From the NCBI GenBank assembly GCA_018304425.1, contig JAGVWE010000006.1:1-64000 (forward strand): 64,000 bases of DNA. Direction: 5' to 3'. This DNA comes from Candidatus Iainarchaeum sp. Its GTDB lineage: Archaea; Iainarchaeota; Iainarchaeia; Iainarchaeales; UBA10219. Below the pieces are notes generated by a model. The model was not told the DNA's origin. It saw only the letters and a list, made by a program, of their open reading frames with translations, and did no database searches. Below, in pieces: positions 368 through 40,106 of this stretch. The first letter of the stretch is position 1. Each line of letters opens with the position of its first letter. A program made the translations under genes and the position numbers.

Positions 368-371
368 GAGC

Positions 372-1364: not shown

Positions 1365-1374
1365 GGGTTTTGGC

Positions 1375-3142: not shown

Positions 3143-3167
3143 TTGACGCCGCGTCACAGGGGTTGTT

Positions 3168-4136: not shown

Positions 4137-4153
4137 GGCGTTTGCTGGGTTTG

Positions 4154-4161
4154 TTTAAATA
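4154..4161 (+). promoter_or_regulatory. Box A promoter of the 147-aa gene
   Basis: A TTTAAATA box lies 59 nt before ATG 4221. Transcription starting about 25 nt downstream would give a short leader ending in a strong GAGGAGG ribosome-binding site (4213-4219), so this gene and the following rfbB-rfbA pair probably form their own unit. Confidence 0.5.
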
Positions 4162-4220
4162 ATTATTGCTGCAGTAATTGGTAACTTGCCCGCGGGAAGG
4201 GCAGGACTGTTTGAGGAGGC

Positions 4221-4664
4221 ATGGCATTGGTTGAGGGCGCAAGTCTGAAGCACATCCAGGTTGAAGGCGTTATCAGCGGAATGGACTTCGAGGACGGGGT
4301 CGTAATTGTCCAGGGCCCTGACGAGAAATACTTGAACAGCATCCTGGCCTTGTGCAAGCGCCGCTTCAACCAGTTCATGGTGGTTTCCAAGCAGAACCCC
4401 GCGGCAGCGGTGGAAGCGCTGCCCGTGCGCGAGATGACACACATCCTGACGGATGATGTGGAAGTAAAGGAGAAATGCTCCATCCACTTCTCGGGTCCGG
4501 TGCACGCGGAATTCGAGTTCAGCGAGCAGGCCGGCATCCTGGCAGTCAACTTCACCAAGAAAGAGCTGGGTTCCTCCGGCAAGAAGGCAGGCGCGCCCCC
4601 CTCTGACTGGCTGGGCGGCCTCACGAAGAAGAAAGAGGAAAAGCCGGCCGCGCCCACGGCCTGA
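4221..4664 (+). CDS. Conserved-looking protein of unknown function, 147 aa
   Basis: I do not recognise a family. The protein is soluble, has no signal peptide or membrane segment, and seems to have a compact domain of about 115 residues rich in beta strands (HIQVEGVISGMDFEDGVVIVQ, then HFSGPVHAEFEF). A charged low-complexity tail with Lys, Pro and Ala follows. A near-perfect Shine-Dalgarno (GAGGAGG, 2-3 nt before ATG) and its own box A suggest strong expression, unlike the coupled enzymes around it. It lies between an SDR gene and rfbB, but nothing in the sequence ties it to sugar metabolism. Confidence 0.7.
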   Translation: MALVEGASLKHIQVEGVISGMDFEDGVVIVQGPDEKYLNSILALCKRRFNQFMVVSKQNPAAAVEALPVREMTHILTDDVEVKEKCSIHFSGPVHAEFEFSEQAGILAVNFTKKELGSSGKKAGAPPSDWLGGLTKKKEEKPAAPTA

Positions 4665-4702
4665 GATTCTTTTTGCGTGGATAGTGAGGGTGAGTCAAGA
4701 AC

Positions 4703-5677: not shown

Positions 5678-6408
5678 AGGGCGTGATTTTGGCGGGGGGC
5701 ACCGGTTCGCGGCTGATGCCGCTGACGAAAGTAACCAACAAGCACCTGCTGCCGGTGTATGACCGGCCGATGATTTTTTATCCCCTGCAGACCTTGAAGG
5801 ACGCGGGCATCAAGGACATTTTGGTGGTAACGGGAATGCATCACGCCAGCGCGGTGTCCGCGCTGCTGGGTTCCGGGAAAGAGTATGGCGTGCGGTTTTC
5901 CTACAAGCTGCAGAAAGAGGCGGGCGGGCTCCCGCAGGCCATCGCCTTGGCCGAGGACTTCGTCGGCGGAGGCAAATTCGTGTCCATCAACGGCGACAAC
6001 CTCTTGTTCGAGAACATCAAGCCCTTCGTCAAGAAATTCGCGAAAGGGCGGGAACAGGCCCGCATCCTGCTGGCGAAAACCACGCGCGAAGAGGCGAAGA
6101 AGGCCGGGGTGGCCGTGTTCAAGCGGGGAAAGATTGTCGACCTGGTCGAGAAGCCGAAGGACCCGCCCACGAACTGGGTGAGCATTGGCGTGTATATGTA
6201 TGGCCCCGATGTCTTTGACATTATCCGGACGCTGAAGCCGTCCAAGCGCGGGGAGCTGGAGATAACGGACGTGAACCGCGCCTATTTGGCGCGCGGGACG
6301 CTGAAGTACGACCGGCTCCGCAAGGGCTGGATGGATGCCGGAACGATTGACGAGCTGTGGCGGGCGAACAGGGTCATGCGGGAATTGACGCGTAAAGCCC
6401 GCCAATAG
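5674..6408 (+). CDS. rfbA: Glucose-1-phosphate thymidylyltransferase, short form
   Basis: The nucleotidyltransferase signature GGTGSRLMPLTKVTNKHLLPV opens the protein, followed by FYPLQTL, NGDNL (metal and sugar-phosphate site) and VEKPKDPP. The family joins dTTP and glucose-1-phosphate to give dTDP-glucose. The 244-aa length matches the short RmlA form without the C-terminal allosteric extension of the roughly 290-aa enterobacterial enzyme. GTG 5674 is chosen because it overlaps the rfbB stop and begins directly with KGVILAGG. Confidence 0.93.
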   Translation: MKGVILAGGTGSRLMPLTKVTNKHLLPVYDRPMIFYPLQTLKDAGIKDILVVTGMHHASAVSALLGSGKEYGVRFSYKLQKEAGGLPQAIALAEDFVGGGKFVSINGDNLLFENIKPFVKKFAKGREQARILLAKTTREEAKKAGVAVFKRGKIVDLVEKPKDPPTNWVSIGVYMYGPDVFDIIRTLKPSKRGELEITDVNRAYLARGTLKYDRLRKGWMDAGTIDELWRANRVMRELTRKARQ

Positions 6409-6455
6409 ACGCAATGAAAGGGTTTTACTGGTACAATGGTCGAAGAAAAATAATA

Positions 6456-6466
6456 AGTATATATAG
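6456..6466 (+). promoter_or_regulatory. Box A promoter (AGTATATATAG) of the radical SAM gene
   Basis: A strong TATA element sits 41 nt before ATG 6508 in an otherwise gene-free 99-nt gap. The predicted short leader carries AGGGGAG (6493-6499) as ribosome-binding site. Confidence 0.6.
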
Positions 6467-6507
6467 GGGTAGGCCGTTATCTTAGTAGAACAAGGGGAGC
6501 TTGCAGG

Positions 6508-7959
6508 ATGAGACTCAAGGTTTTGACGCTTAATCCGCCGTTTTTTCCCAAGTACTCGCGGGAATCGCGCTCGCCTTCGGTGACCAAGGGCGGCACGACC
6601 TATTACCCGATGTGGCTCGCGTATGCCACGGGCGTGCTGATGAAGGAAGGCTTCAACACCCGGATGGTGGATGCCGCGGGGGCCTGCAAGACCAAGGAAG
6701 AGGTAACGGACATCATCCGGCACATGAAGCCCGATTACATCGTCACCTACACCTCGACGGGTTCGGTGGTGAACGACGCGGAATACATCCAGAGCGTGAA
6801 GGATGAGGGCCTGGACTTTTACTCGGTGTTCGTGGGGCCGCACGCGACCGCGACCCCGGTGGAGACCCTGAAACTCAATGACGCCATGGACGCGGTTGCG
6901 CGAAGCGAGTTCGACTACATCGTGCGCGACCTGGCGTTCGAGCTGGAAAAGGGCCAGCCGGACTTGTCAAAGGTCCGGGGCCTCAGCTTCAAGGGCTCGG
7001 ACGGAAAAATCAGGCACAACGAGCCCATGGACCCCATCGAGAACCTGGATGAGATCCCCTTCGTGTCCAAGGTCTACAAGCGGTTCCTGAACATCTGGGA
7101 TTACTTTTACTCGGCCAACCTGTATCCGGAAGTGCAGATTGTCACGGGCCGGGGCTGCCCGTATAGGTGCACGTTCTGCCACTGGCCGCAGACCATGACC
7201 GGGAGAAAGTTCCGGACGCGCTCCATCGAAAACGTGATGGACGAGTTCGACTACATCGAGAAGACCTTTCCGGGCCTGGGCGAGGTGTTTTTGGAGGATG
7301 ACACGTTCACGCAGGACCGCAAGCGCGTCAAGGAATTCTGCGAGGCGAAGGCCAGGCACGGCAACGGGCTGGTGTGGAGTTGTAACGCGCGCGCGGACGT
7401 GGACTTGGAGACCTTGAAGGCCATGAAAACCGCGAACTGCCGGCTGGTCTGCGTGGGCATCGAGTCCGGCGTCCAGGAAGTCCTGAACAACGTCAAGAAG
7501 GGCACGACCGTGGAGGGCATCCGCAAGTTTTTCAAGAACACCAAGGAAGCCAATGTCCTGGTGCACGGCTGCTTCATGCTGGGCAACAAGGGCGACACCA
7601 AGGACACGATCAAGAAGACCATCGAGTTCGCGAAGGAGTTGAACCCGGACACGAGCCAGTTCTTTCCCTTGATGGTGTACCCGGGCACGGAAGCCTATGA
7701 GTGGGCCAAGGAACAGGGGCACCTGAAGACCAATGACTACGCGCAGTGGCTGAACGCGGAGGGAGGGCACAACACCATCATCGATAGGCCGGGGTTGACG
7801 CACGAGGAACTCGTGCAGATGTGCAACGACGCGCGCACGGAATATTATTTCAGGCCCAACTACATGGCGACCAAGGTCAAGCAGGTGCTGACCCTGCCCA
7901 TGGAAAGGCGCCGCATCCTCAAGGCGTTCCAGGTGTTCGTCAAGCAGTTGGGCAAGTAA
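6508..7959 (+). CDS. B12-binding-domain radical SAM protein
   Basis: A 483-aa protein of the BchE/HpnJ-like group. The N-terminal 180 residues resemble a cobalamin-binding Rossmann domain (TLNPPFFPKYSRES, YYPMWLAYATGVL, with VGPHAT as the loop end). The radical SAM core holds GRGCPYRCTFCHWPQ at about residues 214-228, the Cys-x3-Cys-x2-Cys that binds the 4Fe-4S cluster, followed by FLEDDTFTQD and CVGIESG. The C terminus has MVYPGTEAYEWAKEQG. Such enzymes methylate or rearrange unactivated carbons of lipids, sugars or cofactors; the substrate here is unknown. It has its own promoter and stands alone between rfbA and fhs. Confidence 0.88.
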   Translation: MRLKVLTLNPPFFPKYSRESRSPSVTKGGTTYYPMWLAYATGVLMKEGFNTRMVDAAGACKTKEEVTDIIRHMKPDYIVTYTSTGSVVNDAEYIQSVKDEGLDFYSVFVGPHATATPVETLKLNDAMDAVARSEFDYIVRDLAFELEKGQPDLSKVRGLSFKGSDGKIRHNEPMDPIENLDEIPFVSKVYKRFLNIWDYFYSANLYPEVQIVTGRGCPYRCTFCHWPQTMTGRKFRTRSIENVMDEFDYIEKTFPGLGEVFLEDDTFTQDRKRVKEFCEAKARHGNGLVWSCNARADVDLETLKAMKTANCRLVCVGIESGVQEVLNNVKKGTTVEGIRKFFKNTKEANVLVHGCFMLGNKGDTKDTIKKTIEFAKELNPDTSQFFPLMVYPGTEAYEWAKEQGHLKTNDYAQWLNAEGGHNTIIDRPGLTHEELVQMCNDARTEYYFRPNYMATKVKQVLTLPMERRRILKAFQVFVKQLGK

Positions 7960-7986
7960 GCCGGTTTGAATCCTTCAACCCAAGCC

Positions 7987-8001
7987 TTTTATTCTCTTTT
8001 T
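7987..8001 (+). terminator. T-rich archaeal-type terminator
   Basis: A run TTTTATTCTCTTTTT begins 27 nt after the stop of the radical SAM gene and just before the fhs start. Archaeal RNA polymerase stops on such U-tracts without a hairpin, and no stem is visible. Confidence 0.4.
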
Positions 8002-8014
8002 CCCTAATGGGGGC

Positions 8015-9676
8015 GTGAAGCCCAAGCTCAAACCCATCCAAGCCGTTGCCCGCAAGGCCGGCCTCCCCCTTGCTTTTCTCGAGCCCTATGGCAGGGGCAA
8101 GGCCAAAATCGATTGGCGGGTGTTAAAGCGCTTGAAAGGCCGGAAGGACGGCAAGCTCATCCTGGTTTCCTCCATGAACCCCACCCGCTTTGGAGAGGGA
8201 AAAACCGTGACCACTATCGGATTAGCGCAGGCGTTGGCGCGGCTGGGCAAGAAGGCCCTGATTTGCCTGCGGCAGCCCAGCATGGGCCCGGTGTTTGGCG
8301 TGAAGGGCGGGGCCACGGGTGGCGGGAAGTCGAAGGTCGAGCCCGCTGAAGACATTAATTTGATGTTCACGGGCGACATCGCCGCGGTCTCGGCAGCTGC
8401 GAACCTGTTGGCGGCCCTCATTGACAATCACTTGGCGCGCGGCAACAAACTGGGGCTGGACCCGGATCGGATTGCGTGGCCGCGCGCCCTGGACGTGAAC
8501 GACCGCGCCTTGCGCGATATCACGGTGTGCCAGGGAACCAACGTGTGCGTGGAACACGAAAGCCATTTCGTGATTTCCGCGGCCTCGGAGGTCATGGCGT
8601 GCCTGTGCCTGGCAAACGACTTGACGGAGTTGAAGGAGATGCTGGGAAGCATTGTGGTCGGTTACTCTCGGAAGGGAGGGACCGTGCGTGCGGTGCGCGC
8701 GCGGCAGTTGAAGGCGGCTGGGGCCATGGCGGCCATTCTCCGCGATGCCTTGAAGCCCAACCTCGTGCAGTCCACGGAGGGCATACCTGCCTTCGTGCAC
8801 GGAGGACCTTTCGCAAACATCGCGCACGGCACCAACTCGGTGCTCGCGACCCGGCTGGCGTTGAAGCTGGCCCATGGAGGCCATGTGGTAACCGAGGCCG
8901 GCTTTGGCTCGGACCTGGGTCTGGAAAAGTTCATGGACATCGTTTCCAGGAAAGCCGGTTATAAGCCGGATTGCGTGGTTTTAGTGGCTTCGTTGAAGGC
9001 TTTGAAGCACCATGGCGGGGCTAGGGAACCGGAGAAACGGAATCAGGCGGCGCTGGAGCAGGGGTTTGCCAACCTCGAAAAGCATGTGGAGAACGCGGCC
9101 TTGTTCGGTTTGCCGTGTGTCGTGGCCATCAACCGCTTCCCGCTGGACTCCGCGCAGGAAACCGAGTGGGTCCGGGGAAAATGCGCCGCACTGGGCGTGG
9201 AAGCGGTTCCATCCAGGGTGTTCGCGGAGGGTGGAAGAGGTGGGGAGGAGTTGGCGCGCGCGGTGCTGAAGGCGGTGCAGCGACCAGGGCAGCGGCCTGG
9301 GAGGGCGCACGCCCTGTATTCCTTGCAGTGGCCGTTGAAGAAAAAAATCGAGGCCATTGCCACGCATGTGTATGGCGCTGGCAGGGTGACGTTTTCGGCG
9401 GAGGCACGCAGGGACTTGAAGCGGCTGGAGGCGCTCGGCTTTGGCCGGCTGCCCGTGTGCGTGTCCAAGACGCAGTACTCGTTGAGCGATGACCCTGAAA
9501 AACGGGGGAGGCCGCGCGGGTTTTCGCTGCGCGTGCGCGGGGCCCAGGTTTCGGCGGGAGCCGGCTTCGTCGTCGTGTACGTCGGTGACCTGATTTCCTT
9601 GCCGGGTCTGCCGGAAAAACCGGCCGCAGAAAGGATGGACGTCGACGAGAAAGGCGAGGTCACGGGCTTGTTTTAG
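8015..9676 (+). CDS. fhs: Formate-tetrahydrofolate ligase (divergent)
   Basis: The 553-aa length and full-length similarity match the family, which makes 10-formyl-THF from formate, ATP and THF. GEGKT forms the P-loop; GGPFANIAHGTNSV, TEAGFGSDLG, KTQYSLSDDP and SAGAGF are recognisable. The family signature GIKGGAAGGGY reads GVKGGATGGGK, the FTGDFHAI segment reads FTGDIAAV, and the segment before ASEVMA is VEHESHFVIS rather than the usual RExGFDIT-type sequence. These substitutions surround the nucleotide and substrate pocket. GTG 8015 is the only start that keeps the N-terminal helix. Activity is likely but not certain. Confidence 0.9.
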   Translation: MKPKLKPIQAVARKAGLPLAFLEPYGRGKAKIDWRVLKRLKGRKDGKLILVSSMNPTRFGEGKTVTTIGLAQALARLGKKALICLRQPSMGPVFGVKGGATGGGKSKVEPAEDINLMFTGDIAAVSAAANLLAALIDNHLARGNKLGLDPDRIAWPRALDVNDRALRDITVCQGTNVCVEHESHFVISAASEVMACLCLANDLTELKEMLGSIVVGYSRKGGTVRAVRARQLKAAGAMAAILRDALKPNLVQSTEGIPAFVHGGPFANIAHGTNSVLATRLALKLAHGGHVVTEAGFGSDLGLEKFMDIVSRKAGYKPDCVVLVASLKALKHHGGAREPEKRNQAALEQGFANLEKHVENAALFGLPCVVAINRFPLDSAQETEWVRGKCAALGVEAVPSRVFAEGGRGGEELARAVLKAVQRPGQRPGRAHALYSLQWPLKKKIEAIATHVYGAGRVTFSAEARRDLKRLEALGFGRLPVCVSKTQYSLSDDPEKRGRPRGFSLRVRGAQVSAGAGFVVVYVGDLISLPGLPEKPAAERMDVDEKGEVTGLF

Positions 9677-9704
9677 GCGCACCGGAAATGCGGTTGGTTG
9701 CGAC

Positions 9705-9712
9705 TTTTTAAA
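9705..9712 (+). promoter_or_regulatory. Box A upstream of the PIN gene
   Basis: TTTTTAAA lies 58 nt before ATG 9771 in the 94-nt gap after fhs. The transcript would begin near 9730, close to the hairpin described at 9722-9774. Confidence 0.4.
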
Positions 9713-9721
9713 GGGGTGGTG

Positions 9722-9774
9722 GCATAGCCCATTGGCTGGCTCCGTTTCGCCTATGAGGAGGGAATAGGCTATGC
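9722..9774 (+). promoter_or_regulatory. Overlapping inverted repeats around the PIN ribosome-binding site
   Basis: GCATAGCC (9722-9729) is the exact reverse complement of GGCTATGC (9767-9774), which contains the start codon. A second pair, GCCTAT (9749-9754) and ATAGGC (9764-9769), forms a stem whose 9-nt loop is GAGGAGGGA, the ribosome-binding site of the PIN gene. The two stems share bases and cannot form together. They could be an operator or a translational switch; this is inferred from base pairing only. Confidence 0.35.
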
Positions 9775-10147
9775 GGCGGATTTACCTGGACACGAACGTG
9801 TTCATCTCCTGGGTCCAAATAGAACTTGGAAAGGGATGGCGGGGGCTCTTTTCGGAAGCGGAATTATTCATGGACAAAGTAAAGCCGGCGGAGATATTGT
9901 AGTGCTCTCAGACTGGTTTTTTGCCGAAGTTGAACGGGCGGGGTACTGGACCAGGCTGGAAGTATTGCACCATTTCGAGAAGAACGGCGTGAACGTAGAG
10001 ATAGTTGAACCTAAAGCACAATTGAACGTAAGAGAATGGCAGAGGTTAGGCATTCCACGGTCTGATGCGGTACACGCCGCAATTGCGGCGTATGCCCGAT
10101 GCGATTGCCTCGTCACATTTAACGTCCGGGATTTCGAGCCAGCTTAA
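9771..10147 (+). pseudogene. PIN-domain (VapC-like) toxin gene interrupted by a frameshift
   Basis: The start frame encodes MRRIYLDTNVFISW with the first catalytic Asp, and continues to KVKPAEIL before a TAG at 9900-9902. The -1 frame then encodes the rest: VVLSDWFFAEVERAGY with the conserved Glu, PRSDAVHAAIAAYARCDCLVT with the third acidic residue, and NVRDFEPA to a TAA at 10147. Joined near 9890-9900 the parts give a PIN ribonuclease of normal size (about 125 aa). A one-base deletion explains it; no clear slippery heptamer is present. It may be a true pseudogene or an assembly error. No antitoxin lies upstream; a ribbon-helix-helix gene faces it downstream. Confidence 0.8.
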
Positions 10148-13460: not shown

Positions 13461-14600
13461 CTACTCCTTGGCGGCAGAAAGCACCGATGCCGCACGCAGG
13501 AACTTGGGAAGCACGGCCTCAAGCGCCTTCACCTCACGCCCAGGGAGGGCATCGGAAACAAACAGGCATTCCTCTTTCACGTCAAATGGATTGTAGCCGT
13601 GCATGCCTTTCACCGGCCCGTGGTCGAAGAAGTTGGGGGACAGCACGCGGCCCGGCGAGACGCAGAAGAACTCGTGGCCGGCCTCGGGCACGCGGTCGAG
13701 TTGGAGCGCATTTTTTTCGCGGGTGGACAGGAAGCGACCTCCCTCGACGCCGTTGAAAGCCTCGAAAAGGGCGTTCCGCTGCGCCTCATCGTTTACCCAA
13801 AACCGGGCCATGGTGGAGTCGAGGAAATGCTTGACGCCGTGTAGGCGTTGGAGCGGCTCCCCAATATCGGTTGGACCGGTTACCGGGACCATGCCGTGGT
13901 CCGACCAGAGGAGGAAGGGCGCGCCTTCTTTTTGCGCGCGGGAAACCAGGCGTTCAATGAGGGCGTCCTGCGCGCGAAGGGTGGAAGCGAGGGCATCGGG
14001 GTCGGGGCCGAGGGCGTGGCCGGAGTGGTCCAGGTCCCAGAAGTGGAAGAAGTAAACATCCTTGTCCAGGGAGAGGAGCCGTTCGGCGGTGCGGGCGCGT
14101 GCGGCGTCGGTGGTGGCCGAGAATTCGAGGGAAACGCCCTGCTCGGTGCCGATGACCGGCCAGTTGTGGCAGACGAAGGAGGTGCCTTGGACACGCAGGG
14201 AGTCGAAAACGGTGGGCACGGGGAGCGAGCCTGGCTCGGAAATGAATCTTTCCTGGCTGAGCGAGAAGCCGCGCGCTTTGTTGAGGCCGATGAAGGGCAC
14301 GACGTTGGTGTGGCCTGCGTAGAAACGCTGGAGGCTGAAGTAGTAGGCGTCAAGCGGCCGCGGCAGGAAGGCGGAGACGATGCCGCGTATTTTTTCCGGG
14401 CCGTTGGCGTAGACGTTGAGTTGGCGGTGCTCGGCAAGCGTCTTACCCGAGTAAAAAGTGGCTGGCACGTTGGCGTAACCGAAGGGCTTGGGGACCGAGC
14501 CCAGGCCGTGCCCGTCGAGGAGGGATTGAAGGAACGGCATGCGCTGCCGCGAAAGGTAGGAAGCGTCAAGGGCATCCATCCAGAGGATGAGGGCTTTCAT
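13461..14600 (-). CDS. Alkaline-phosphatase-superfamily phosphodiesterase/phosphatase
   Basis: A 379-aa soluble protein with the metal-site layout of type I phosphodiesterases/nucleotide pyrophosphatases: Asp9 in ILWMDA, Thr48 as nucleophile in VPATFYSG, FWDLDHSGHALGP, WSDHGM and GMHGYNP supply the Asp and His ligands of a two-metal centre. There is no signal peptide or membrane segment, so it appears cytoplasmic. It is the last gene of an eight-gene operon (ATGA overlap with the methyltransferase before it) and meets the plus-strand GT2 gene with no gap. A phosphoester or phosphoglycan intermediate is a plausible substrate; this is inference. Confidence 0.85.
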   Translation of the reverse strand: MKALILWMDALDASYLSRQRMPFLQSLLDGHGLGSVPKPFGYANVPATFYSGKTLAEHRQLNVYANGPEKIRGIVSAFLPRPLDAYYFSLQRFYAGHTNVVPFIGLNKARGFSLSQERFISEPGSLPVPTVFDSLRVQGTSFVCHNWPVIGTEQGVSLEFSATTDAARARTAERLLSLDKDVYFFHFWDLDHSGHALGPDPDALASTLRAQDALIERLVSRAQKEGAPFLLWSDHGMVPVTGPTDIGEPLQRLHGVKHFLDSTMARFWVNDEAQRNALFEAFNGVEGGRFLSTREKNALQLDRVPEAGHEFFCVSPGRVLSPNFFDHGPVKGMHGYNPFDVKEECLFVSDALPGREVKALEAVLPKFLRAASVLSAAKE

Positions 14601-15457
14601 GGGCGTTTCCTCCCAATTACGTAGAAGTGGTGGCTAAGCAGGTATTTGAGGGCGCGTGGCAGGGCCGCTTCAAAGGCCAAAAGCTGGTCCATGGGATGCC
14701 GGCGGGCAAGCAACGCCTCGTTGCCGGCGGGAAGCGCGTCCCACACCCAGGCCTTGGCCTGCTGCCGGCCGAAAAGGAACTTTATTTTCCCGCGGGTGTG
14801 CATGTCGAAGGTATCAAACCAGGGGCAGGTGTCAAAGAAACCGGAGTCAACGATTTCAAGGCCCGCCTGCTTGAAAGCACGCAGGAGGCCACCAGGCCGC
14901 ATCCATTCAAAGTAGCCGTGATCCCATGCCTGGCCGTTGGCGGCGTGATAGAACCGGTGGATGAAGTAGCCGATATTCCAGGCATTCTGGTTGGCGACCA
15001 ACACGTATTTTCGGGAAACACGCGCCATTTCGGTAAGGAGATCCGGGGCGTTGTGAAAGTGTTCGAACAGGCAGTAATTGAAAACCAGGTCAAACGAGTG
15101 GTCTTCGTAGGGAAGGTGGGTGAGGGGCGGCTGCAGGGCATCGAATTTTGCCTTTCTTTTGAGGCCCAGCTTGTTCCAGAACCTGGCGCTATAGTCCAGG
15201 AGTTTTCGGCTGGGGCTTGCCACGGTTACGTTGGCGCCATTGCGTGCAAACAAAACGCCGCTGGCGCCTGAAACCCCCATGAGGCCGTCGGCTGGGGCCT
15301 CCAGAACGTTGTCAACGTCGTTGGCAATGGTTTTCCACAGGATGCGGTTGAAGGAAAGCCGCTCAAAGGCGATGCCAATGCCTTCGTCGAAGTCCTGGGG
15401 CAGGCTGGGCAGGTTACGGTCCAGGAAACCCTGCAGGAGTTTTTCGTCCCGATTCAT
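14597..15457 (-). CDS. Class I SAM-dependent methyltransferase-like protein
   Basis: A 286-aa protein with a class I methyltransferase topology. Motif I is unusual (GLMGVSGASGVLF, no acidic residue before the glycines); motif IV is FDLVFNYCLFEHFHNA, followed by a strand RKYVLVANQNAWNIGYFIHRFYH. The same NxWNxGxFIHxFYH block occurs in the protein at 17785 (NYWNPGTFIHWFYH), so the two are relatives in one operon. ATG 15457 is chosen because it overlaps the SDR stop (ATGA). The odd motif I could mean weak SAM binding or an altered role. Confidence 0.78.
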   Translation of the reverse strand: MNRDEKLLQGFLDRNLPSLPQDFDEGIGIAFERLSFNRILWKTIANDVDNVLEAPADGLMGVSGASGVLFARNGANVTVASPSRKLLDYSARFWNKLGLKRKAKFDALQPPLTHLPYEDHSFDLVFNYCLFEHFHNAPDLLTEMARVSRKYVLVANQNAWNIGYFIHRFYHAANGQAWDHGYFEWMRPGGLLRAFKQAGLEIVDSGFFDTCPWFDTFDMHTRGKIKFLFGRQQAKAWVWDALPAGNEALLARRHPMDQLLAFEAALPRALKYLLSHHFYVIGRKRP

Positions 15458-16461
15458 AAGAGGTCTCTCTCCATATCCCATCGGACGGTGTCATTTAGGG
15501 CCTGCTGGAAGGGTATAACGGGTTTATAGCCCAGGAGGCGCTCGGCTTTGGAGGAAGAGTAAACATGGGGGGTAGTAAAATAGCGCACCGTGTTCACGCC
15601 CATGCGGGGAAACCCGGGCAACAGTCGGGCGATAAAGCTCATGGGATACGCGAGGAGGTAGGCGACGAATACAGGCAGGAAAAGGAGCCTGGCTTTTTTG
15701 CCAAGGGCTACTGCAATGGCTTGGAGGTAGGACCGCAACGCGGGTTTTTCCTGGCCTGAAAGGATGAACGTCTGGTTGCACGCGGCGCGGTTGCCTGGAA
15801 CGCTGGCCATGCCCCTGACGAGGTCGCGGACGTCAACCAAGTCGAATTTGTTTTTGCCGTTGCCGAAGACCACGAAGCCCCCCCGGCTAAGGGCCTTGAA
15901 AATATTTTTCCGGTTGGAGGAGTCGCGGGGGCCACACACAATGGAGGGACGGAGAATGCAATAACGCGTCTTCGTCGGCGCGCAAAGGGCTTTCACGAGT
16001 TTTTCGGCCTCGGCTTTGGTGCGCGCATACTTGGTTTCCGGTTGGTAGGGCGCGCGTTCGTCAAGCCCGTTGGCGGGCGTTGGGCCAAGGACGTCAACGG
16101 TGCTGCAGAAGACAAACAATTCGACCCCTGCCTTGATGGAGGCCAGTGAGAGGTTGCGCGTTCCCTCGACATTGGCTTGCCAGAATGCCTGCTCCGGGTA
16201 ACGCCCTTCGTCGGACAAGGCCGCCAGGTGGAAGACTACTTGACAGCCGGCCACCAGCAGGGCCAGTGCATTCGCATCATCCAAGTCGCCGGCCACGGTT
16301 TGCACGCCGAGGGCTTCCAGGGCCTGCAAGCGGCTGGATGGCCTGGCGAGGCAAACCACGTCATGGCCGCGGCTACGCAGTTCTTCGACCAGGTAACCGC
16401 CAATGAAGCCAGTTCCACCAGTTACTGCGACTTTCACGCCATCACGCAGTCCTTTAGCCAT
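15454..16461 (-). CDS. NAD-dependent epimerase/3-beta-HSD-like SDR
   Basis: A 335-aa extended SDR: VTGGTGFIGGYL nucleotide loop, FHLAAL, CSTVDVLGP and YARTKAEAE (Tyr-x3-Lys), then RPSIVCGPRD. A hydrophobic stretch near residue 250 (LLFLPVFVAYLLAYPM) is common in 3-beta-hydroxysteroid-dehydrogenase-like members acting on lipid or lipid-linked substrates. ATG 16461 begins just before the NAD strand, 11 nt after the preceding stop; upstream extensions run into the neighbour. It is embedded in the eight-gene operon between a methyltransferase and a nucleotidyltransferase-like gene. Confidence 0.82.
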   Translation of the reverse strand: MAKGLRDGVKVAVTGGTGFIGGYLVEELRSRGHDVVCLARPSSRLQALEALGVQTVAGDLDDANALALLVAGCQVVFHLAALSDEGRYPEQAFWQANVEGTRNLSLASIKAGVELFVFCSTVDVLGPTPANGLDERAPYQPETKYARTKAEAEKLVKALCAPTKTRYCILRPSIVCGPRDSSNRKNIFKALSRGGFVVFGNGKNKFDLVDVRDLVRGMASVPGNRAACNQTFILSGQEKPALRSYLQAIAVALGKKARLLFLPVFVAYLLAYPMSFIARLLPGFPRMGVNTVRYFTTPHVYSSSKAERLLGYKPVIPFQQALNDTVRWDMERDLL

Positions 16462-16472
16462 CGAAACCCTTT

Positions 16473-17783
16473 TTAGACGAGTTTTTGGAAGAAGTAAAGC
16501 ACGTAGGCATCGCAGAAGGCCTTGTCGGCTTCCAGCCAGTCTTCCCTGGCAGAGCCGTGGCCCGCGGGCAGGGGGCATACTTGGCTTATTTTTTTGCGGG
16601 CGAGGGAAAGCTGCCGGAGGTCAAGCCCGCCCTCGGCTTGGATGCAGGAAAGGAGGAGGGGTAGGGCCGAAAACAACACAAGGTCAGGGGTCGCCGAATT
16701 CAGGAGCACACGCGGATGGAACACGCCATGGAACCGGAGGAGGCGCAGGAAGAACAGGCAATTCAGGTAGAAACGCGCGAATGGCAGCAGCAGGCTGGCG
16801 GGCAGGGTGAAACCCAGACGATGGCGACAGGCAGCGGAAAGGTACGGTTCAAAGTAGGGGGCCTGAACGCGGCGGGCAATCGCATCCGATAGTTGTTCAG
16901 GCGAGGACATCGAGAGGCCCAGCCACTGGTTGGTGAAGCAAAGCGTTGCCTGCAGAATGCAGTCGCGGGCCTCGAAGAAGAAGGCTGGAGCGTCGAGTTT
17001 TTGCGTGAAGTCCGTGTTGTCCTTGAAGGCAACCACCTGGTTCACGCGTTTTGGCAGGTCAGGAAGCTTTTTGGCGAGTCCGGGAAATTCTTTGGCATAA
17101 GATGCGGCAAATGCCTTGGCGCGTGCGGCATGGGTGGACGCGTACGCGCCCTTCAGGAGCAGGAGGGCTTCCGAAGCCCCCAGAAAGGCCTTGGAACCCA
17201 GCAACAGCAGGCCACGTTTCTCGTTGGGGGTGGGGGGCCTCTCAAAGAATTCAATGGAAAAGTATTCGGCAAGCATGGCCATGCGGTTGAGCAACAAGCG
17301 GAAGCCTTCGGCAAGCGGGAGGGCCCGCGCGGAAAAAGAGGGCAAGTGGTCGAGGAGGTTCACGCCCGCAATGACCGTCGAGGCCTCTCTGAGGTCGTAG
17401 TACCTGACAAGGGGCAGCACACGCGGGAGGTCGGCTTCGGAGAGGGTTTTCACGTCCAGGTAAAACGTGTTCGCGTATTTTTCGCGGTCGAAGAAATAGA
17501 AGGGCACTCCGTGACTGGGCAGGCCGAGTTCGCTGACGAGCGCATTGGCGATGTGGTTGAGCTCGGGTTCGCTGACGCGCGCGTTCGTCACCACGTACAA
17601 GTCGAAGTCGTTGAGGGGAAGGATTTTTCCGTTTTCGCGCGTCCAACCGCCTTCGCCGCGGCCGTAGCCCCCCGCAAGAATGACTGAAACCGCGCCAGGC
17701 ACGCGTTGAAGGAGCCCTTTTCCGACTGCCTGAACCAGTCGCGCGATTTCCTTGTCGGCTTGGGGGTCTTTCACGAACGGCAT
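16473..17783 (-). CDS. Large nucleotidyltransferase-fold protein
   Basis: A 436-aa protein opening with a polymerase-beta-type nucleotidyltransferase motif: AGGYGRGEGG (residues 37-46), then NDFDLYVV with Asp59 and Asp61 as the metal-binding pair. After roughly 150 residues the rest is helical and Leu/Ala-rich (GSKAFLGASEALLLLKGAY, ASLLLPFARFYLNCLFFLRLL) with no assigned family. This is far longer than MNT/HEPN-type toxins. ATG 17783 lies one base after the methyltransferase stop. Within a methyltransferase/SDR/phosphatase operon it could attach a nucleotide to a small molecule or lipid, but no family evidence fixes that. Confidence 0.72.
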   Translation of the reverse strand: MPFVKDPQADKEIARLVQAVGKGLLQRVPGAVSVILAGGYGRGEGGWTRENGKILPLNDFDLYVVTNARVSEPELNHIANALVSELGLPSHGVPFYFFDREKYANTFYLDVKTLSEADLPRVLPLVRYYDLREASTVIAGVNLLDHLPSFSARALPLAEGFRLLLNRMAMLAEYFSIEFFERPPTPNEKRGLLLLGSKAFLGASEALLLLKGAYASTHAARAKAFAASYAKEFPGLAKKLPDLPKRVNQVVAFKDNTDFTQKLDAPAFFFEARDCILQATLCFTNQWLGLSMSSPEQLSDAIARRVQAPYFEPYLSAACRHRLGFTLPASLLLPFARFYLNCLFFLRLLRFHGVFHPRVLLNSATPDLVLFSALPLLLSCIQAEGGLDLRQLSLARKKISQVCPLPAGHGSAREDWLEADKAFCDAYVLYFFQKLV

Positions 17784-17784
17784 G

Positions 17785-18558
17785 CTATCCCTTTTCGGCG
17801 AAAACGTAGATGTGGTGTGCGGCAACCGATTTTATGCTGCCCGGCAACCAGGGGTTCTTCTCGACGAACCAGAGACGCTCGAAGGTCTTCAGCCATTCGG
17901 CGTAGGATTTCGTGGCTGATGAGATGGGCTTGTCCTTGGGGGCGAGGCCGAACTCGCGCTTGGCTTCCTCAAGGGAAAAGCCGATGTCCGGGATGAGGGG
18001 CAGATCGACATAGCCTTGTTCCAGGATGCGGAGGCCGGCCTGGCGGACGAGTCGAGTGACGCCGGCCACGGTTCGAAGCCTTGCGGAGCCCCGTTCCGCA
18101 TGCGTGCAAGCCGCCTGGGAAAAGCGATGGTAGAACCAGTGGATGAAGGTGCCGGGGTTCCAGTAGTTGGGAACGCAGACGAGGACGTAGCGCTTGGAAT
18201 GCGCCACCATCTCTTTCACGATGCCGGGCCGCATCTGGGCGAGCGCGAACGACCAGACGAAATCGTATGTGCCTGGCTTGTCGGTGAACGCGGGCCTTTT
18301 CGGCGCTTGCCACTCCTTGGCATAACGCTTGGCCTCGGCATCGTAAAGGGTCACGTCGCATTTGCCAAGCACGGGGAGGTTATCGTATCCTTTCGTTATT
18401 TCGCAGCCATACTCGCAGACTGACTTGAAACCGTATTTGGCGCGCAGGCGGTCGAGCAGTTCGACGACCATGTACCGCTCGTAGAGCGTGCCCACTCCTT
18501 CGTGGGCGAGGTTCTCGCAAATCCATTTCCGGGCTGCTTCCAATTCCAGTGCATCCAC
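17785..18558 (-). CDS. Methyltransferase-like protein, paralogue of the one at 14597
   Basis: A 257-aa protein with a diverged class I methyltransferase core: VCEYGCEITKGYDNLP stands for motif I, FVWSFALAQMRPG for motif IV, and KRYVLVCVPNYWNPGTFIHWFYH matches the block in the downstream methyltransferase. The C terminus contains a Trp/Pro-rich stretch (WFVEKNPWLPGS). No ATG is available; GTG 18558 is taken, with TTG 18564 overlapping the radical SAM stop (TTGA) as an equal alternative. Two related methyltransferases separated by an SDR and a nucleotidyltransferase suggest two steps on one scaffold. Confidence 0.7.
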   Translation of the reverse strand: MDALELEAARKWICENLAHEGVGTLYERYMVVELLDRLRAKYGFKSVCEYGCEITKGYDNLPVLGKCDVTLYDAEAKRYAKEWQAPKRPAFTDKPGTYDFVWSFALAQMRPGIVKEMVAHSKRYVLVCVPNYWNPGTFIHWFYHRFSQAACTHAERGSARLRTVAGVTRLVRQAGLRILEQGYVDLPLIPDIGFSLEEAKREFGLAPKDKPISSATKSYAEWLKTFERLWFVEKNPWLPGSIKSVAAHHIYVFAEKG

Positions 18559-18560
18559 CT

Positions 18561-19643
18561 TCAACCAATAACGACTTCGGCGGCCACGCTGGCCAGGGTC
18601 TTCAAATCGCAGAGCATCGTGGTGTACGCGGCGTTGGCGAGCGGGCAAAAGCATTCCTTGTCCTTGATGCTCTTGCGGAGCTTGTCTGCCACGGCGTTGA
18701 ACCAGATGCGTGGAAAATCGTATCCGTGGTCGCGGAGGTTTCCCATGGACTGGGCCCTGACGCAGCAGGTCCAGACGTCGCCCTTCCAGTTGATTTGAGC
18801 GGAGGCAACCCCCGCCATGCAGGGAATGGCCTGGGTGCGCTTGCGGAGCACTTCCTTGACCATGGCGTAATAGCGCTTGCGGAAGGCCTGGGTGACCTTT
18901 GAGGTCGCCTTGAAGCTTCGGTCGGCGAGCCGGTCCAGCAAGTGGTCGATGGCCGCAGCATATTCCTCTGCGGAGGGCGTGAGGCCGAAGCCGACCGTGC
19001 CGAGTTCGGGGCGTTCCTCCGCGATTTCCGTGATGTAGGAATCCGGTTCGAGGGCCAGCAAGCCGTCACATATCCTTGGGAATTCCTTGACGTTGTGCTT
19101 GGAGATGACCGTGTGGATGCCGATTTCGAGGTTCTTGAATTCCTTTTTGAGTTCCTTGAGGCCGGCCAGGGTTTCCATGGACTTCTCCCAGTTCCCGGGC
19201 ACGCCGCGGATGCGGTCGTGCTGCTCGCGCAAGCCATCCAGGGAGAGGTTGATGATTATTTTGGGGTCCGGGCAGGATTCCAGGATTTTCCGCGTCTTTT
19301 CGAGGATGGCCTTGGAGAGGATGCCATTGGTGGGGATGTTGATGATGCCGGGCCGGCAGTGCCTGCACACGCTCTGGCACATTTCGGGGAGGTCCTTGCG
19401 CATGAAGGGCTCCCCGCCGCTCATGGTGACCCAGAACAGGTTGTCGCCAATGGATTGAAAGGTTTTGTCCCATTCCTCCAGGGAGAGGTCCTGGGTGCCC
19501 TTGTTCTTCCAGATGTTGCAGGTCAAACACTTCGAGTTGCAGTAGCCCAGCGTGCTCACGGTCAGGTTAAGGGGCAGGGTCCTGGGCCAGCCAAGGGCGT
19601 GAAAGGCTTTCAAAGCCGGAATCCGCGAAACAGGTTCCTTCAT
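18561..19643 (-). CDS. Radical SAM protein with SPASM-like C-terminal cysteines
   Basis: A 360-aa enzyme of the MoaA/PqqE-like group. Cys35, Cys39 and Cys42 in YCNSKCLTC bind the radical SAM 4Fe-4S cluster; MSGGEPFMRKDL is the SAM-binding GGE strand, and NLSLDG follows. C-terminal cysteines (PCMAG, WTCCVR, ECFCPLANA) resemble SPASM or twitch auxiliary clusters. ATG 19643 overlaps the GT2 stop (ATGA). SPASM enzymes modify peptides or small molecules; here the partners are sugar and methyl transferases and no peptide precursor is evident, so the substrate is open. Confidence 0.88.
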   Translation of the reverse strand: MKEPVSRIPALKAFHALGWPRTLPLNLTVSTLGYCNSKCLTCNIWKNKGTQDLSLEEWDKTFQSIGDNLFWVTMSGGEPFMRKDLPEMCQSVCRHCRPGIINIPTNGILSKAILEKTRKILESCPDPKIIINLSLDGLREQHDRIRGVPGNWEKSMETLAGLKELKKEFKNLEIGIHTVISKHNVKEFPRICDGLLALEPDSYITEIAEERPELGTVGFGLTPSAEEYAAAIDHLLDRLADRSFKATSKVTQAFRKRYYAMVKEVLRKRTQAIPCMAGVASAQINWKGDVWTCCVRAQSMGNLRDHGYDFPRIWFNAVADKLRKSIKDKECFCPLANAAYTTMLCDLKTLASVAAEVVIG

Positions 19644-20518
19644 GGAAGTTCCTTGGTAGATTGTAGGGCTTGCCAATTAAAAGGGTTTTTATGGCCCAAA
19701 CAAAGGCGTATGCGTGCAAGCAAGCGGGTGAGACCCTCCAAAAAAGCGCACCCCAAGAGCAAGGGGGCTTCCAAGGGTCTTTCGGCCAGCAAACCATGGA
19801 CGGCCTGGAAAAGGGGCGCAAAGCGGGTGGTGGAAGGCTGGTATCCGCGCCTGGCCAGCCAGTAGTGGCCCAAATGAATGCGAACGCGTTGAGCCAAAAT
19901 CTCCGATAACGTGTCCGGCCCCTTGTTCCGGACAATGGCTTGCGGGGCATAGGCGACCTTCAAGCCCCTGGCCTGGAAAAAGGACTCCAGCCAGGCCTCG
20001 TCCACCGCCGTATCCGGGGGAAGCTGCTTGACTTGGTTTCGGAAGCAAATCAGTTCCCCTGCCTTGGGCTGCAGCAGGGAAACCCGGTGATGCATTTCCC
20101 ACAGGAACCAGGCAAAGTAACCTGAAAGCGTCCGGCGGGGGTTGACCGGAACCGGATGCGCTCCCACCAGGCCCACGGCCGGGTTCGCCAGGCAGTCCAG
20201 CATCCCGGCAATCGCTCCCGGTTCAAGGAGGAGGTCGGCGCCTGCCAGGCAAACGATGTCGCCGGCACACCGGGAGAGGCCGAGGTTGACCGCACTGGCT
20301 TTTCCGAGTTTCTCCGGCTGGACCACCAACCCGATTTTTGGGTTGGCGGCTTGCGCACGCCGGACTTCCTGCACGGTGTTGTCCGTGCAGCCGCTGGCCA
20401 CGACCACGATTTCTTTCAAGGCATGCGGGCCCAGCCGCTGGGCCGCCACGCTCGCAAGCAGTCGGTAAATGTTCTTGCCCTCATTGTAGGCGGGAACAAC
20501 AATGGAGAGGGTAGTCAT
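19640..20518 (-). CDS. GT2 family glycosyltransferase
   Basis: A 292-aa GT-A protein: SIVVPAYNEGKNI, then VVASGCTDNT where DDGSTD is usual, and LAGADLLLEPGA as the metal-site strand. The missing acidic residues in the first motif are a departure from canonical GT2 enzymes but occur in divergent members. A GxxxxDEAWLE block carries the likely catalytic acid. C-terminal helices (LLLGCAFLEGLTRLL) may sit on the membrane. Second gene of the eight-gene operon, 27 nt after the Cys-rich membrane protein. Confidence 0.82.
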   Translation of the reverse strand: MTTLSIVVPAYNEGKNIYRLLASVAAQRLGPHALKEIVVVASGCTDNTVQEVRRAQAANPKIGLVVQPEKLGKASAVNLGLSRCAGDIVCLAGADLLLEPGAIAGMLDCLANPAVGLVGAHPVPVNPRRTLSGYFAWFLWEMHHRVSLLQPKAGELICFRNQVKQLPPDTAVDEAWLESFFQARGLKVAYAPQAIVRNKGPDTLSEILAQRVRIHLGHYWLARRGYQPSTTRFAPLFQAVHGLLAERPLEAPLLLGCAFLEGLTRLLARIRLCLGHKNPFNWQALQSTKELP

Positions 20519-20545
20519 AGGTTCATCCCAGTAAGCATAAAAAAA

Positions 20546-21457
20546 CTAATACGGCCACTGCAAGTCATCCGACGATATGACCCGGTAAAACCCGCTTTCC
20601 TCGGGCAACTGCCTGGGCCCCGTCCAGGCGTCCAAGAGGCTGCCGAACTGGCGCTGGGGGTAGAGCGGGCACAACATCGTTTCGGGCAGGCTGGCCGCAA
20701 TGCGGTCGGCATTGGGTTTGTCGAACACCACCTGCGCGCCCTCCCCCTTTGAACAGTAACTGAAGCCGTGACCGGGATACTGGCAACGCGCGCCCTCGCC
20801 CAGCCTTGGCACGCAGTCGCTGTCCGCGTAGCAGAGGAGCCGGGACTCGATGCGGAACAGGAAGGCCTGCCGGTCGTCCACGCACCAGCTGGTTACCTCC
20901 ACGTCATGGGCCTTCATCTGCAGGGTGTAACCCTTGCCCTTCACGAGGTAGGGCACGAGACCACTCAGCTTGCCGGCTCCCACAAAGCCCTTGCCTGGGA
21001 TTGCTTCCGCCATCAAGTCCCCGACTTCGTCGAAGAGCCTTGCCTCCAGCCGCTGGGGTTGCGGGACATACCGTGCCACGTCGTCCTTGATTCCGGGCCT
21101 GAGCTTTACGTGGAGGTCGCCGAGCCACCCGCTTTTCACGGCATTGAAGTTCACGGAATAGCCTTCAACGGGAAAGGACGCGGTGGTGCAGGCCTCTTCA
21201 TACCGTTTCTCCATGCGGTAAGCCATGGGGGAAAGATCCAGGGGAACGGGCGCGCAACTACCCACCGCCAAACCGGACGAGGAACGCGCTGCGGGCAGGG
21301 TGGGCGGCAGGAAAAACAGGGAGAGCACGACGTATTCCAGCAGAAGCCCCGGCAACACGTATCCTAAGACCATCTTCTTCGCGCCTGCCTGGTTGCGCCC
21401 CCACCGGAAAACCGCATACGAGGCCGCGACAAAAAAAATGACTTCCAGGAGGATCAT
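20546..21457 (-). CDS. Two-TM Cys-rich extracytoplasmic protein (copy A)
   Basis: A 303-aa protein with two N-terminal membrane helices (about residues 3-20 and 31-55) and an outside domain of about 240 residues. The domain has paired cysteines and ends with CQYPGHGFSYCSKGEGAQVVF, clearly related to CIYPGTCHSYCKND and CQFPETCHSYCKHD in the proteins at 29714 and 27212. I know no named family. All three copies lie next to GT-C membrane transferase genes; this one shares a promoter with the GT-C gene at 21513. It heads the eight-gene operon. ATG 21457 fits a leaderless mRNA; TTG 21460 is one codon further up. Confidence 0.75.
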   Translation of the reverse strand: MILLEVIFFVAASYAVFRWGRNQAGAKKMVLGYVLPGLLLEYVVLSLFFLPPTLPAARSSSGLAVGSCAPVPLDLSPMAYRMEKRYEEACTTASFPVEGYSVNFNAVKSGWLGDLHVKLRPGIKDDVARYVPQPQRLEARLFDEVGDLMAEAIPGKGFVGAGKLSGLVPYLVKGKGYTLQMKAHDVEVTSWCVDDRQAFLFRIESRLLCYADSDCVPRLGEGARCQYPGHGFSYCSKGEGAQVVFDKPNADRIAASLPETMLCPLYPQRQFGSLLDAWTGPRQLPEESGFYRVISSDDLQWPY

Positions 21458-21480: not shown

Positions 21481-21488
21481 ATTTAAAT
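21481..21488. promoter_or_regulatory. Symmetric box A shared by two divergent genes
   Basis: ATTTAAAT is its own reverse complement and lies 24 nt from ATG 21513 on the plus strand and 23 nt from ATG 21457 on the minus strand. No second AT-rich element is better placed. One TBP site could thus direct both leaderless transcripts. Confidence 0.6.
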
Positions 21489-22886: not shown

Positions 22887-22915
22887 GGGCTTTGTGCATA
22901 GTATATAGGGCTTAC

Positions 22916-23122
22916 ATGGTATCCGTTGAAGTCACCGTGAAAAAGTGGGGGAACTCCCTTGGACTCATAATCCCCAGGGAAGCCTCTAAAAAGCTTGAAT
23001 TGCGGGAAGGCAAGCGTGTGCGGGTCGAGTTGACGAGCGCTAAATTCGTGGATGCGTTCGGGTTATGCCGGGGACTCAAGCCCTTCAAAAAAGAGGAATT
23101 GATAAGGGAACCCTATAGGTGA
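22916..23122 (+). CDS. AbrB/SpoVT-type antitoxin (VapB-like)
   Basis: A 68-aa protein whose first 45 residues form the swapped-hairpin AbrB DNA-binding fold: VEVTVKKWGNSLGLIIPREASKKLEL, then EGKRVRVEL. The C-terminal tail (GLCRGLKPFKKEELIREPYR) would thread into the toxin active site, as in VapB proteins. ATG 22916 gives the standard start and a leaderless mRNA. It directly precedes the PIN toxin frame; its TGA (23120-23122) overlaps the region where the toxin should begin. Confidence 0.85.
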   Translation: MVSVEVTVKKWGNSLGLIIPREASKKLELREGKRVRVELTSAKFVDAFGLCRGLKPFKKEELIREPYR

Positions 23123-23126
23123 GAAG

Positions 23127-23510
23127 CTGGATTACGTCATAGATACGAGCGCGTGGGTAGAATATCTGCTTGGTACTTCGCGGGGGGGAAAAGTCAAGCA
23201 CCTCTTGGAAACGCCAGGCAACCGATTTTTCACAATGGATTGCTGTGTGGCGGAAGTCTATGCATGGGCTAAACGCCAAGGGGCTGATTTTGGAGAATTG
23301 CTGCGTGCCATTAAGTCGGATAGCTCAATCATTCAAGCAGATTTAAATGATTGGATTGAGGCAGCCGACCTCCGGGACGAGTTGCGGAAGGGAGGCGGAA
23401 AAACCAGCCTGATGGATGCAGTCCAAGTAATCATGGCAAGGCGATTAGGGGCCCGGAACCTCTCCGCCGACTACGACTTCAAGCAAGTCAAGAAAGCCAA
23501 ACTCATTTAA
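23127..23510 (+). CDS. PIN-domain toxin (VapC-like) with no canonical in-frame start
   Basis: The frame encodes a full PIN ribonuclease: YVIDTSAWVEYL (first Asp), CCVAEVYAWAK (Glu), TSLMDAVQVIMARR (Asp) and LSADYDF (last Asp), so the four acidic residues are kept. The frame is open only from 23106 and contains no ATG, GTG or TTG before TTG 23205, which would delete the first catalytic Asp. A GTG at 23119 overlapping the antitoxin stop is one frame off. I place the start at CTG 23127 as the least bad choice. A one-base lesion, a CTG start or a +1 shift at the antitoxin TGA are the options. Confidence 0.7.
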   Translation: MDYVIDTSAWVEYLLGTSRGGKVKHLLETPGNRFFTMDCCVAEVYAWAKRQGADFGELLRAIKSDSSIIQADLNDWIEAADLRDELRKGGGKTSLMDAVQVIMARRLGARNLSADYDFKQVKKAKLI

Positions 23511-40102: not shown

Positions 40103-40106
40103 CCCC

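Follow-up and report, generated by a model that had tools for sequence, protein, structure and literature searches.

A conserved nucleotidyltransferase and phosphodiesterase-fold gene pair in an archaeal operon: a candidate surface-glycan tailoring module

The window, the 64,000-nucleotide stretch of DNA analyzed here, contained eight minus-strand genes (g1 to g8) between positions 13461 and 21457. All eight open reading frames (ORFs) were intact, and neighboring genes either overlapped by 4 nt or were separated by no more than 27 nt. Specifically, gaps of 27 nt, 1 nt, and 11 nt were found at the g1/g2, g4/g5, and g5/g6 junctions, respectively, the g2/g3, g6/g7, and g7/g8 junctions were ATGA overlaps, and the g3/g4 junction was a TTGA overlap. 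These values confirmed the coordinates, overlaps, and gaps of the eight-gene minus-strand operon described in an initial annotation of this DNA. A palindromic TATA-like sequence, ATTTAAAT, was read at positions 21481 to 21488 (no strand assigned), about 28 nt from the start codon of g1 and about 28 nt from that of a divergent plus-strand gene for a PMT_2-type glycosyltransferase. This archaeal TATA-box-like element is a putative promoter and, judging from the sequence, g1 to g8 form a genuine operon that looks co-transcribed. The surroundings of the operon were a large glycan island, shuffled and rich in glycosyltransferases, SDRs, and methyltransferases, and sugar pyrophosphorylases (NTP_transferase fold) were encoded by separate genes nearby. 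The genome was archaeal by its SSU rRNA and STT3.

The first gene, g1 (20546 to 21457, minus strand, as are all genes below), encoded a 303-aa protein with eight Cys residues and N-terminal hydrophobic segments, based on hydropathy and Cys count. The protein matched no Pfam or NCBIfam model, no homologue was present in any of the 86 further genomes of its phylum, and no relatives were detected in the related loci considered below. Because it had no relatives in the phylum or those loci, g1 was dropped as a module member, and it is a lineage-specific first gene outside the conserved core.

The next two genes were assigned via Pfam. The 292-aa product of g2 (19640 to 20518) was a GT2 glycosyltransferase (Glycos_transf_2, 6e-25), and its best matches in a comparison of seven loci were the GT2s encoded at L079, L082, and L010, which are homologous to the window locus. 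The 360-aa product of g3 (18561 to 19643) was a radical SAM/SPASM enzyme (Radical_SAM PF04055, 6e-14; SPASM PF13186, 9e-6), in which a CX3CX2C motif could be read; it was 51% identical to the radical SAM protein of L082 and 43% identical to that of L010, and no NCBIfam equivalog scored above its cutoff. Pfam also placed g6 (15454 to 16461, 335 aa) among the extended SDRs of the NAD-dependent epimerase/reductase type (Epimerase, 2e-44), with SDR relatives in L079, L082, L010, L012, and L078. The nearest NCBIfam model for g6, HpnA-like TIGR03466, scored 177.6 bits, below its cutoff of 367.65, and we rejected an identity as the HpnA hopanoid-associated epimerase on that basis.

Two methyltransferase-like proteins were encoded by g4 (17785 to 18564, 259 aa, TTG start) and g7 (14597 to 15457, 286 aa). 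As previously proposed, the two were related to each other (29% identity, E 6e-12). The product of g4 matched no Pfam or NCBIfam model but was 37% identical to the operon methyltransferase of L079, and g7 had relatives among the methyltransferases in the operons of L079 and L082. Motif I (GxGxG) looked degenerate in both proteins and their relatives, and methylation by g4 or g7 is therefore not assured; g7 nevertheless matched Methyltransf_11 (9e-11). The family assignments of the initial annotation were borne out by Pfam for GT2, radical SAM with SPASM, SDR, g7, and g8, but g4 and g5 matched no model.

The 436-aa product of g5 (16473 to 17783; referred to as NT) had previously been called nucleotidyltransferase-like, and this description held up. 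NT matched no Pfam, NCBIfam, or PADLOC model, and it was identified as AadA-like from a family alignment, an AlphaFold model (pLDDT 92.6), and the match of that model to AadA. It consisted of a nucleotidyltransferase core, a HEPN-like helical domain, and an extra C-terminal helical region of about 150 residues. In an alignment of 47 sequences, G38, G39, G41, D59, and K198 were invariant, and D61 and D110 were nearly so. The model aligned with AadA 5g4a over 225 residues (Z 12.1, rmsd 4.2). The AadA matches spanned NT residues 1 to 289 with a Z of about 12, much of it helix, and no Foldseek match had an E of ≤0.001; the similarity is at the fold level only, and sequence comparison gave it no support. 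In its predicted structure, NT resembles the aminoglycoside adenylyltransferase AadA and has an intact catalytic triad. An AadA-like fold does not imply antibiotic resistance, and the glycan context of NT makes aminoglycoside adenylylation unlikely. Single-sequence searches with g5 found no match in plasmids or viral contigs, a search of plasmids with a bacterial NT relative also found none, and single-sequence searches of the phylum and relatives with g5, g8, and g4 were likewise negative.

The structural neighbors of NT also included MNT antitoxins, HEPN proteins, and HalB. We judged these matches to be at the fold level and did not adopt them as the identity of NT, but they raised the idea of a defense or toxin-antitoxin-like system (MNT/HEPN-type or Hailong HalB-like) inside the glycan island. 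This idea is extremely unlikely, given that PADLOC models matched neither NT nor the g8 product, that the radical SAM protein had only superfamily-level viperin matches, and that the partners of NT were consistently glycan-assembly genes.

The last gene, g8 (13461 to 14600), encoded a 379-aa NPP/ENPP-like protein of the alkaline phosphatase superfamily (referred to as AP; Pfam Phosphodiest, 1e-14) with no TM-like segment. In an alignment, AP kept all six Asp/His metal ligands (D9, D191, H195, D234, H235, and H334). The Thr/Ser nucleophile that precedes the TG helix in NPP/ENPP enzymes was not found, and Ala43 occupied the aligned position, as judged by sequence alignment through a gapped loop. 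AP relatives mostly had Ser, Thr, or Cys at this site (Ser in L079 and L082), and others differed. Because Ala replaces the usual nucleophile, ordinary NPP catalysis is doubtful for the AP of the window. The top structural match of the AlphaFold model (pLDDT 85.7) was the choline phosphodiesterase ENPP6 (5ege; Z 26.5, rmsd 3.1, 319 aligned). LicD-type enzymes have a nucleotidyltransferase fold, and together with the ENPP6 match this allows NT to be viewed as a LicD/fukutin-like phospho-X transferase that takes a phosphocholine-like or alditol-phosphate-like group from a CDP donor and attaches it to a glycan, with AP removing or editing the group as ENPP6/7 do on phosphocholine esters. We consider this improbable because NT carries the classical GGxGRGE...NDxD signature and third acidic residue typical of NTP-using enzymes, and CDP-choline or CDP-alditol genes were not noticed beside the module.

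Similar operons were found elsewhere. The closest relatives of the window locus, L079 and L082, had the layouts GT2-MT-MT-NT-SDR-AP and rSAM-SDR-MT-NT-AP, respectively, where MT is methyltransferase and rSAM is radical SAM, and L010, from a CPR bacterium, had the layout GT2-rSAM-SDR-DUF362-NT-AP. All of the operon genes but g1 (seven of eight) had relatives in such look-alike operons, so the proposed eight-gene unit stood for those seven genes and not for g1. The expectation of a dedicated gene set was also upheld. The radical SAM protein, the 436-aa protein, and AP were neighbors in other genomes, and the suggestion that their homologues might be scattered failed for that reason; the combination was not peculiar to this genome but a conserved module that recurs in L079, L082, and L010. 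Gene fusions joined the same parts: NT-AP-GT2-TPR-rSAM/SPASM-MT in L021, B12rSAM-NT-AP-GT2 in L023, AP-NT in L028, and GT2-NT in L044 and L050. What looked like an AP-GT2-NT triple fusion in L050 was a misframing artifact in a GC-rich locus, in which AP was a separate ORF.

NT and AP were also linked by their distribution. Within one DPANN order, 103 genomes were compared, and the 10 genomes with NT (E ≤1e-10) were exactly the 10 with strong AP-subfamily matches (E ≤2e-51; all other genomes had E ≥6e-14). The chance of identical sets is 1/C(103,10), or 4e-14, if the genomes are treated as independent and their relatedness is ignored. The two genes were at most one gene apart in all nine testable loci of these genomes. 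The window grouped with L079 in the NT tree (99/93) and with L079 and L082 in the AP tree (100/99), and the NT and AP distance matrices were correlated (r = 0.80; 0 of 2,000 permutations). Chance assembly, in which local shuffling gathered common glycan-island genes that share no pathway, would suit the surrounding island and the fact that all families except those of g4 and g5 are common. The identical presence of NT and AP in 10 of 103 genomes, the translational overlaps, the similar layouts of L079, L082, and L010, and the repeated fusions make it very unlikely overall; it is contradicted for NT and AP and is possible for g1.

A scan of 84,980 species genomes, steered toward motifs likely to be conserved, placed NT loci in more than 10 bacterial phyla, mostly in exopolysaccharide clusters. 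The search peptides were chosen from an alignment of native g5 and four artificial conservative variants, which served only for that choice, and matches were confirmed via tblastn with native g5. The loci were limited to carriers of a GG[YF]GRGEG or ND[FY]DLY motif, and family membership was assigned with profiles on six-frame ORFs. AP was present in 33 of the 47 NT loci; the other 14 lacked it in the examined flank, several of which were truncated by contig ends. The essential unit is supported as NT plus AP, often with GT2, and the radical SAM protein, SDR, methyltransferases, and DUF362 are interchangeable additions.

The surface lipid or glycan setting proposed earlier was consistent with the genes around the pair. 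In Pacearchaeota, NT-AP adjoined STT3/AglB, a PF00953 glycosyl-phosphate transferase, LPG_synthase_TM, and GT2. In Spirochaetota, Cloacimonadota, Lentisphaerota, and other bacteria, NT-AP, often with GT2, lay among Poly_export, Bac_transf, glycosyltransferases, and flippases. The bacterial relatives included culturable ones such as Rubritalea marina. In archaea and bacteria that differ greatly, NT-AP recurs next to genes for surface sugars, which suggests an undescribed route of glycan decoration.

Some loci suggested instead that NT and AP make and recycle an activated donor and that NT does not touch the glycan. A protein of the PRK/uridine kinase family directly adjoined NT in the bacterial loci L020, L030, L041, and L051, a Thymidylate_kin-like protein followed AP in L013, and the NPP fold includes nucleotide pyrophosphatases. 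A kinase would then phosphorylate an alditol or sugar, a pyrophosphorylase-like NT would make an NDP-activated compound, and AP would hydrolyze an NDP or polyprenyl-linked phosphodiester by-product. We regard this as unlikely, though worth keeping in mind, since the window operon and its archaeal relatives L079 and L082 were without kinases, and NT looks like the adenylyltransferases that act on an acceptor hydroxyl, not like the sugar pyrophosphorylases with their NTP_transferase fold.

Our preferred reading, which we hold tentatively but consider quite plausible, is that the operon represents one form of a conserved module for tailoring surface glycans, with NT and AP at its core and a nucleotidylation-then-phosphodiester mechanism. 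The module is supported by operon structure, layout, co-occurrence, adjacency, fusion, context, predicted folds, and active-site residues; its chemistry, including the substrate, donor nucleotide, order of steps, and direction of the AP reaction, is what we infer. On the cytosolic side, GT2 would add a sugar to a polyprenyl-phosphate-linked glycan, and this sugar would then be modified by the radical SAM, SDR, and methyltransferase-like proteins. NT would use an NTP to nucleotidylate a hydroxyl, in the manner of AadA acting on the sugar of an aminoglycoside, and AP would work on the phosphodiester so formed. The residue would end up phosphorylated, or processed in some other way, through a two-step phosphorylation relay, and the glycan would be exported or passed on to protein after the AP step. 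The predicted folds fit the earlier suggestion that the pathway may nucleotidylate and then trim, but g8 lacks the usual AP-superfamily nucleophile. It is conceivable, if somewhat doubtful, that NT-AP is an undescribed two-enzyme relay that serves both protein glycosylation in archaea and exopolysaccharide assembly in bacteria and results in net glycan phosphorylation without a kinase. A search of open-access PMC text found nothing relevant on the gene combination, the NT-AP pair, or nucleotidylated glycans, and the pair in surface-glycan loci is undescribed in the literature searched. What stands out is that a nucleotidyltransferase family outside Pfam and an obligate-looking phosphodiesterase-fold partner occur in surface-glycan loci of both domains; the module predicts that surface glycans of archaea and bacteria carry an uncharted modification with nucleotidyl or phosphate groups.

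Each part of the module can be compared with a known system. NT shared the nucleotidyltransferase fold, helical domain, and catalytic acidic residues of the AadA/ANT(3'')(9) streptomycin-spectinomycin adenylyltransferases, and AadA acts on the hydroxyl of a sugar-like acceptor, to which the proposed NT reaction is likened. However, identity was only about 11 to 14% over aligned residues, and NT differed in its extra C-terminus, its absence from Pfam, and its location in glycan loci without a drug resistance context. AP had the fold and metal ligands of the NPP/ENPP family (PF01663), but it had no TM-like segment, it was located in biosynthetic operons, and the nucleophile found in most AP relatives was Ala in the window. 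In the case of archaeal N-glycosylation (Agl) clusters, the Pacearchaeota loci were similar, whereas the one STT3 of the window genome was on a different contig (C4) from the operon; characterized Agl pathways are not known to contain an AadA-like NT and NPP-like pair. Finally, although the pair was in no described exopolysaccharide pathway found in open-access PMC text, the bacterial NT-AP loci, with their export, transferase, and flippase genes, were reminiscent of Wzx/Wzy-type exopolysaccharide loci.

The eight genes at 13461-21457 on the minus strand were all intact and closely packed on reading the sequence. The gene for a Cys-rich membrane protein (g1) was separated from the GT2 gene (g2) by a 27-nt gap, g2 and the radical SAM/SPASM gene (g3) shared an ATGA overlap, and g3 and a methyltransferase-like gene (g4) shared a TTGA overlap. 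A 1-nt gap separated g4 from g5, which encodes a 436-aa AadA-like nucleotidyltransferase (NT), and an 11-nt gap separated g5 from g6 (SDR). ATGA overlaps joined g6 to g7 (methyltransferase-like) and g7 to g8, which encodes a 379-aa NPP/ENPP-like protein of the alkaline phosphatase superfamily (AP). Pfam matches in the operon were to GT2, radical SAM plus SPASM, extended SDR, Methyltransf_11 (g7), and Phosphodiest (g8), and g4 and g5 had no match in Pfam or NCBIfam; g4 and g7 were related (29%). The palindromic, TATA-like ATTTAAAT at window positions 21481-21488, 5' of g1, was located symmetrically, about 28 nt from the start codon of each divergent glycan gene. Such spacing would be expected if the element were a shared archaeal TATA box and both transcripts were leaderless, as we infer.

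The initial annotation had proposed that the eight genes form a dedicated set, an idea that scattered homologues would have undermined. That objection failed because the same operon recurred elsewhere. The layouts of the closest archaeal relatives were GT2-MT-MT-NT-SDR-AP (L079) and rSAM-SDR-MT-NT-AP (L082, with GT2 just upstream, past a transposase-like ORF), where MT is a methyltransferase and rSAM a radical SAM protein, and short overlaps joined several of their genes. A CPR bacterium (L010) carried GT2-rSAM-SDR-DUF362-NT-AP-MT. Among seven loci compared, the closest relatives of g2, g4, g5, g7, and g8 were in L079 or L082, that of g3 was in L082 (51%), and that of g6 was in L010 (33%). The NT tree grouped the window with L079 (support 99/93), and the AP tree grouped it with L079 and L082 (100/99). 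NT and AP are the constant parts, commonly with GT2; rSAM, B12-rSAM, SDR, DUF362, and MT are interchangeable. A second GT2 and radical SAM/SPASM pair, its rSAM 36% identical to g3, was found outside the window on the same contig (G000:C6:77102-79185) with no NT or AP nearby, and the GT2-rSAM pair may be a separate module of its own.

A genome-collection scan aimed at the likely NT signature yielded 47 loci. Profile searches identified a same-family AP in the examined flank of 33 of them, at most 1.5 kb from NT in 26 of the 33 and on the same strand in 30. NT and AP distances correlated over 41 loci (r = 0.80; 0 of 2000 permutations reached that value). When both were sought in 103 genomes of one DPANN order, NT was present in 10 (E <= 1e-10), and strong AP-profile matches (E <= 2e-51) occurred in exactly those ten; the best match in the remaining genomes had E >= 6e-14 and was limited to a short stretch. 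The chance of an identical ten is 1/C(103,10) = 4e-14 assuming independent genomes, a figure weakened by kinship, though the ten span nine genera. NT and AP were adjacent or one gene apart in nine; in the tenth, they were on separate contigs, with NT at the end of its own. Neither g1, g5, nor g8 was found in any other genome of the window's phylum (87 genomes searched).

Fusions were also observed. One Myxococcota MAG (L021) contained a single uninterrupted ORF of 3274 aa (3-9827, cut off by the contig start) with NT, AP, GT2, TPRs, radical SAM/SPASM, methyltransferase, and TPRs, and another (L023, 1210-6321) encoded B12-rSAM, NT, AP, GT2, and TPR within 1703 aa. AP was fused to NT in L028, and GT2 was fused to NT in L044 and L050; L021, L023, L028, and L044 contained no N bases. 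These MAG-borne fusions cover most of the window operon's enzyme list.

The GGxGRGE, NDxD, and third-Asp signature was kept across the 47 aligned NT sequences, and because of this conservation NT is probably enzymatically active. The NT family had no match above cut-off in Pfam, NCBIfam, or PADLOC, its sole PHROGs match was at chance level, and its best match among PDB sequences was a marginal one to AAD(9) (E 0.7). For AP, all six metal ligands were conserved in the alignment. Most relatives had Ser, Thr, or Cys at the aligned nucleophile site, whereas g8 had Ala43, as assigned by sequence alignment in a gapped loop, and several archaeal and CPR members had other residues. Given Ala43, catalysis by g8 may rely on a different nucleophile (Asn44, Thr48, or water), or g8 may be a transferase or a binding partner.

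The window genome, archaeal by SSU rRNA, encoded one STT3 oligosaccharyltransferase on a different contig, and the operon sits inside a glycan island of about 100 kb. A long minus-strand run at 38037-51875 included an asparagine-synthase-like amidotransferase, UDP-GlcNAc 2-epimerase, GT4s, and two methyltransferases, and glycan genes on the contig extended past it, to about 100 kb. Also inside the island, one of two small ORFs at 22892-23510 read as a putative AbrB-type antitoxin and the other as a putative PIN-type toxin, and at 6508-9676 a B12-binding radical SAM gene (483 aa) adjoined formate-tetrahydrofolate ligase; genes of the same broad B12-radical SAM family adjoined NT-AP in many DPANN loci. 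In Pacearchaeota-type genomes, NT-AP adjoined STT3/AglB, PF00953 glycosyl-phosphate transferase, LPG_synthase_TM, and B12-binding radical SAM. Bacterial NT loci were mostly exopolysaccharide clusters (Poly_export, Bac_transf, GTs, and flippases) in Spirochaetota, Cloacimonadota, Lentisphaerota, Verrucomicrobiota, Acidobacteriota, Planctomycetota, and others. In four of these (L020, L030, L041, and L051), a PRK/uridine-kinase-family gene and a hexapeptide-repeat NDP-sugar-pyrophosphorylase-like gene were directly upstream of NT.

Because an acceptor-hydroxyl NT is apparently obligately coupled to an NPP-fold enzyme in glycan assembly, the data suggest hydroxyl nucleotidylation followed by phosphodiester resolution. 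NT would nucleotidylate a hydroxyl on a sugar linked to a lipid or a nucleotide, and AP would then resolve the resulting phosphodiester. The leading alternatives are kinase-dependent donor synthesis, in keeping with the PRK-family kinases that adjoin NT in some bacteria, and LicD-like phospho-transfer.

The predicted g8 structure (pLDDT 85.7) was nearest to ENPP6, autotaxin, and ENPP7 (Z ~26). For the g5 model (pLDDT 92.6), the nearest solved structures were AadA-type adenylyltransferases (5g4a: Z 12.1, rmsd 4.2, 225 residues), with which it shares an NT core and a HEPN-like helical domain; this likeness is at the level of the fold, since Foldseek returned nothing at E <= 0.001 and a Z of ~12 is moderate given much helix. 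No description of the NT-AP pair was found in open-access literature text, and we rate the window operon as a surface-glycan gene cluster, a known kind, built around an undescribed enzyme pair.
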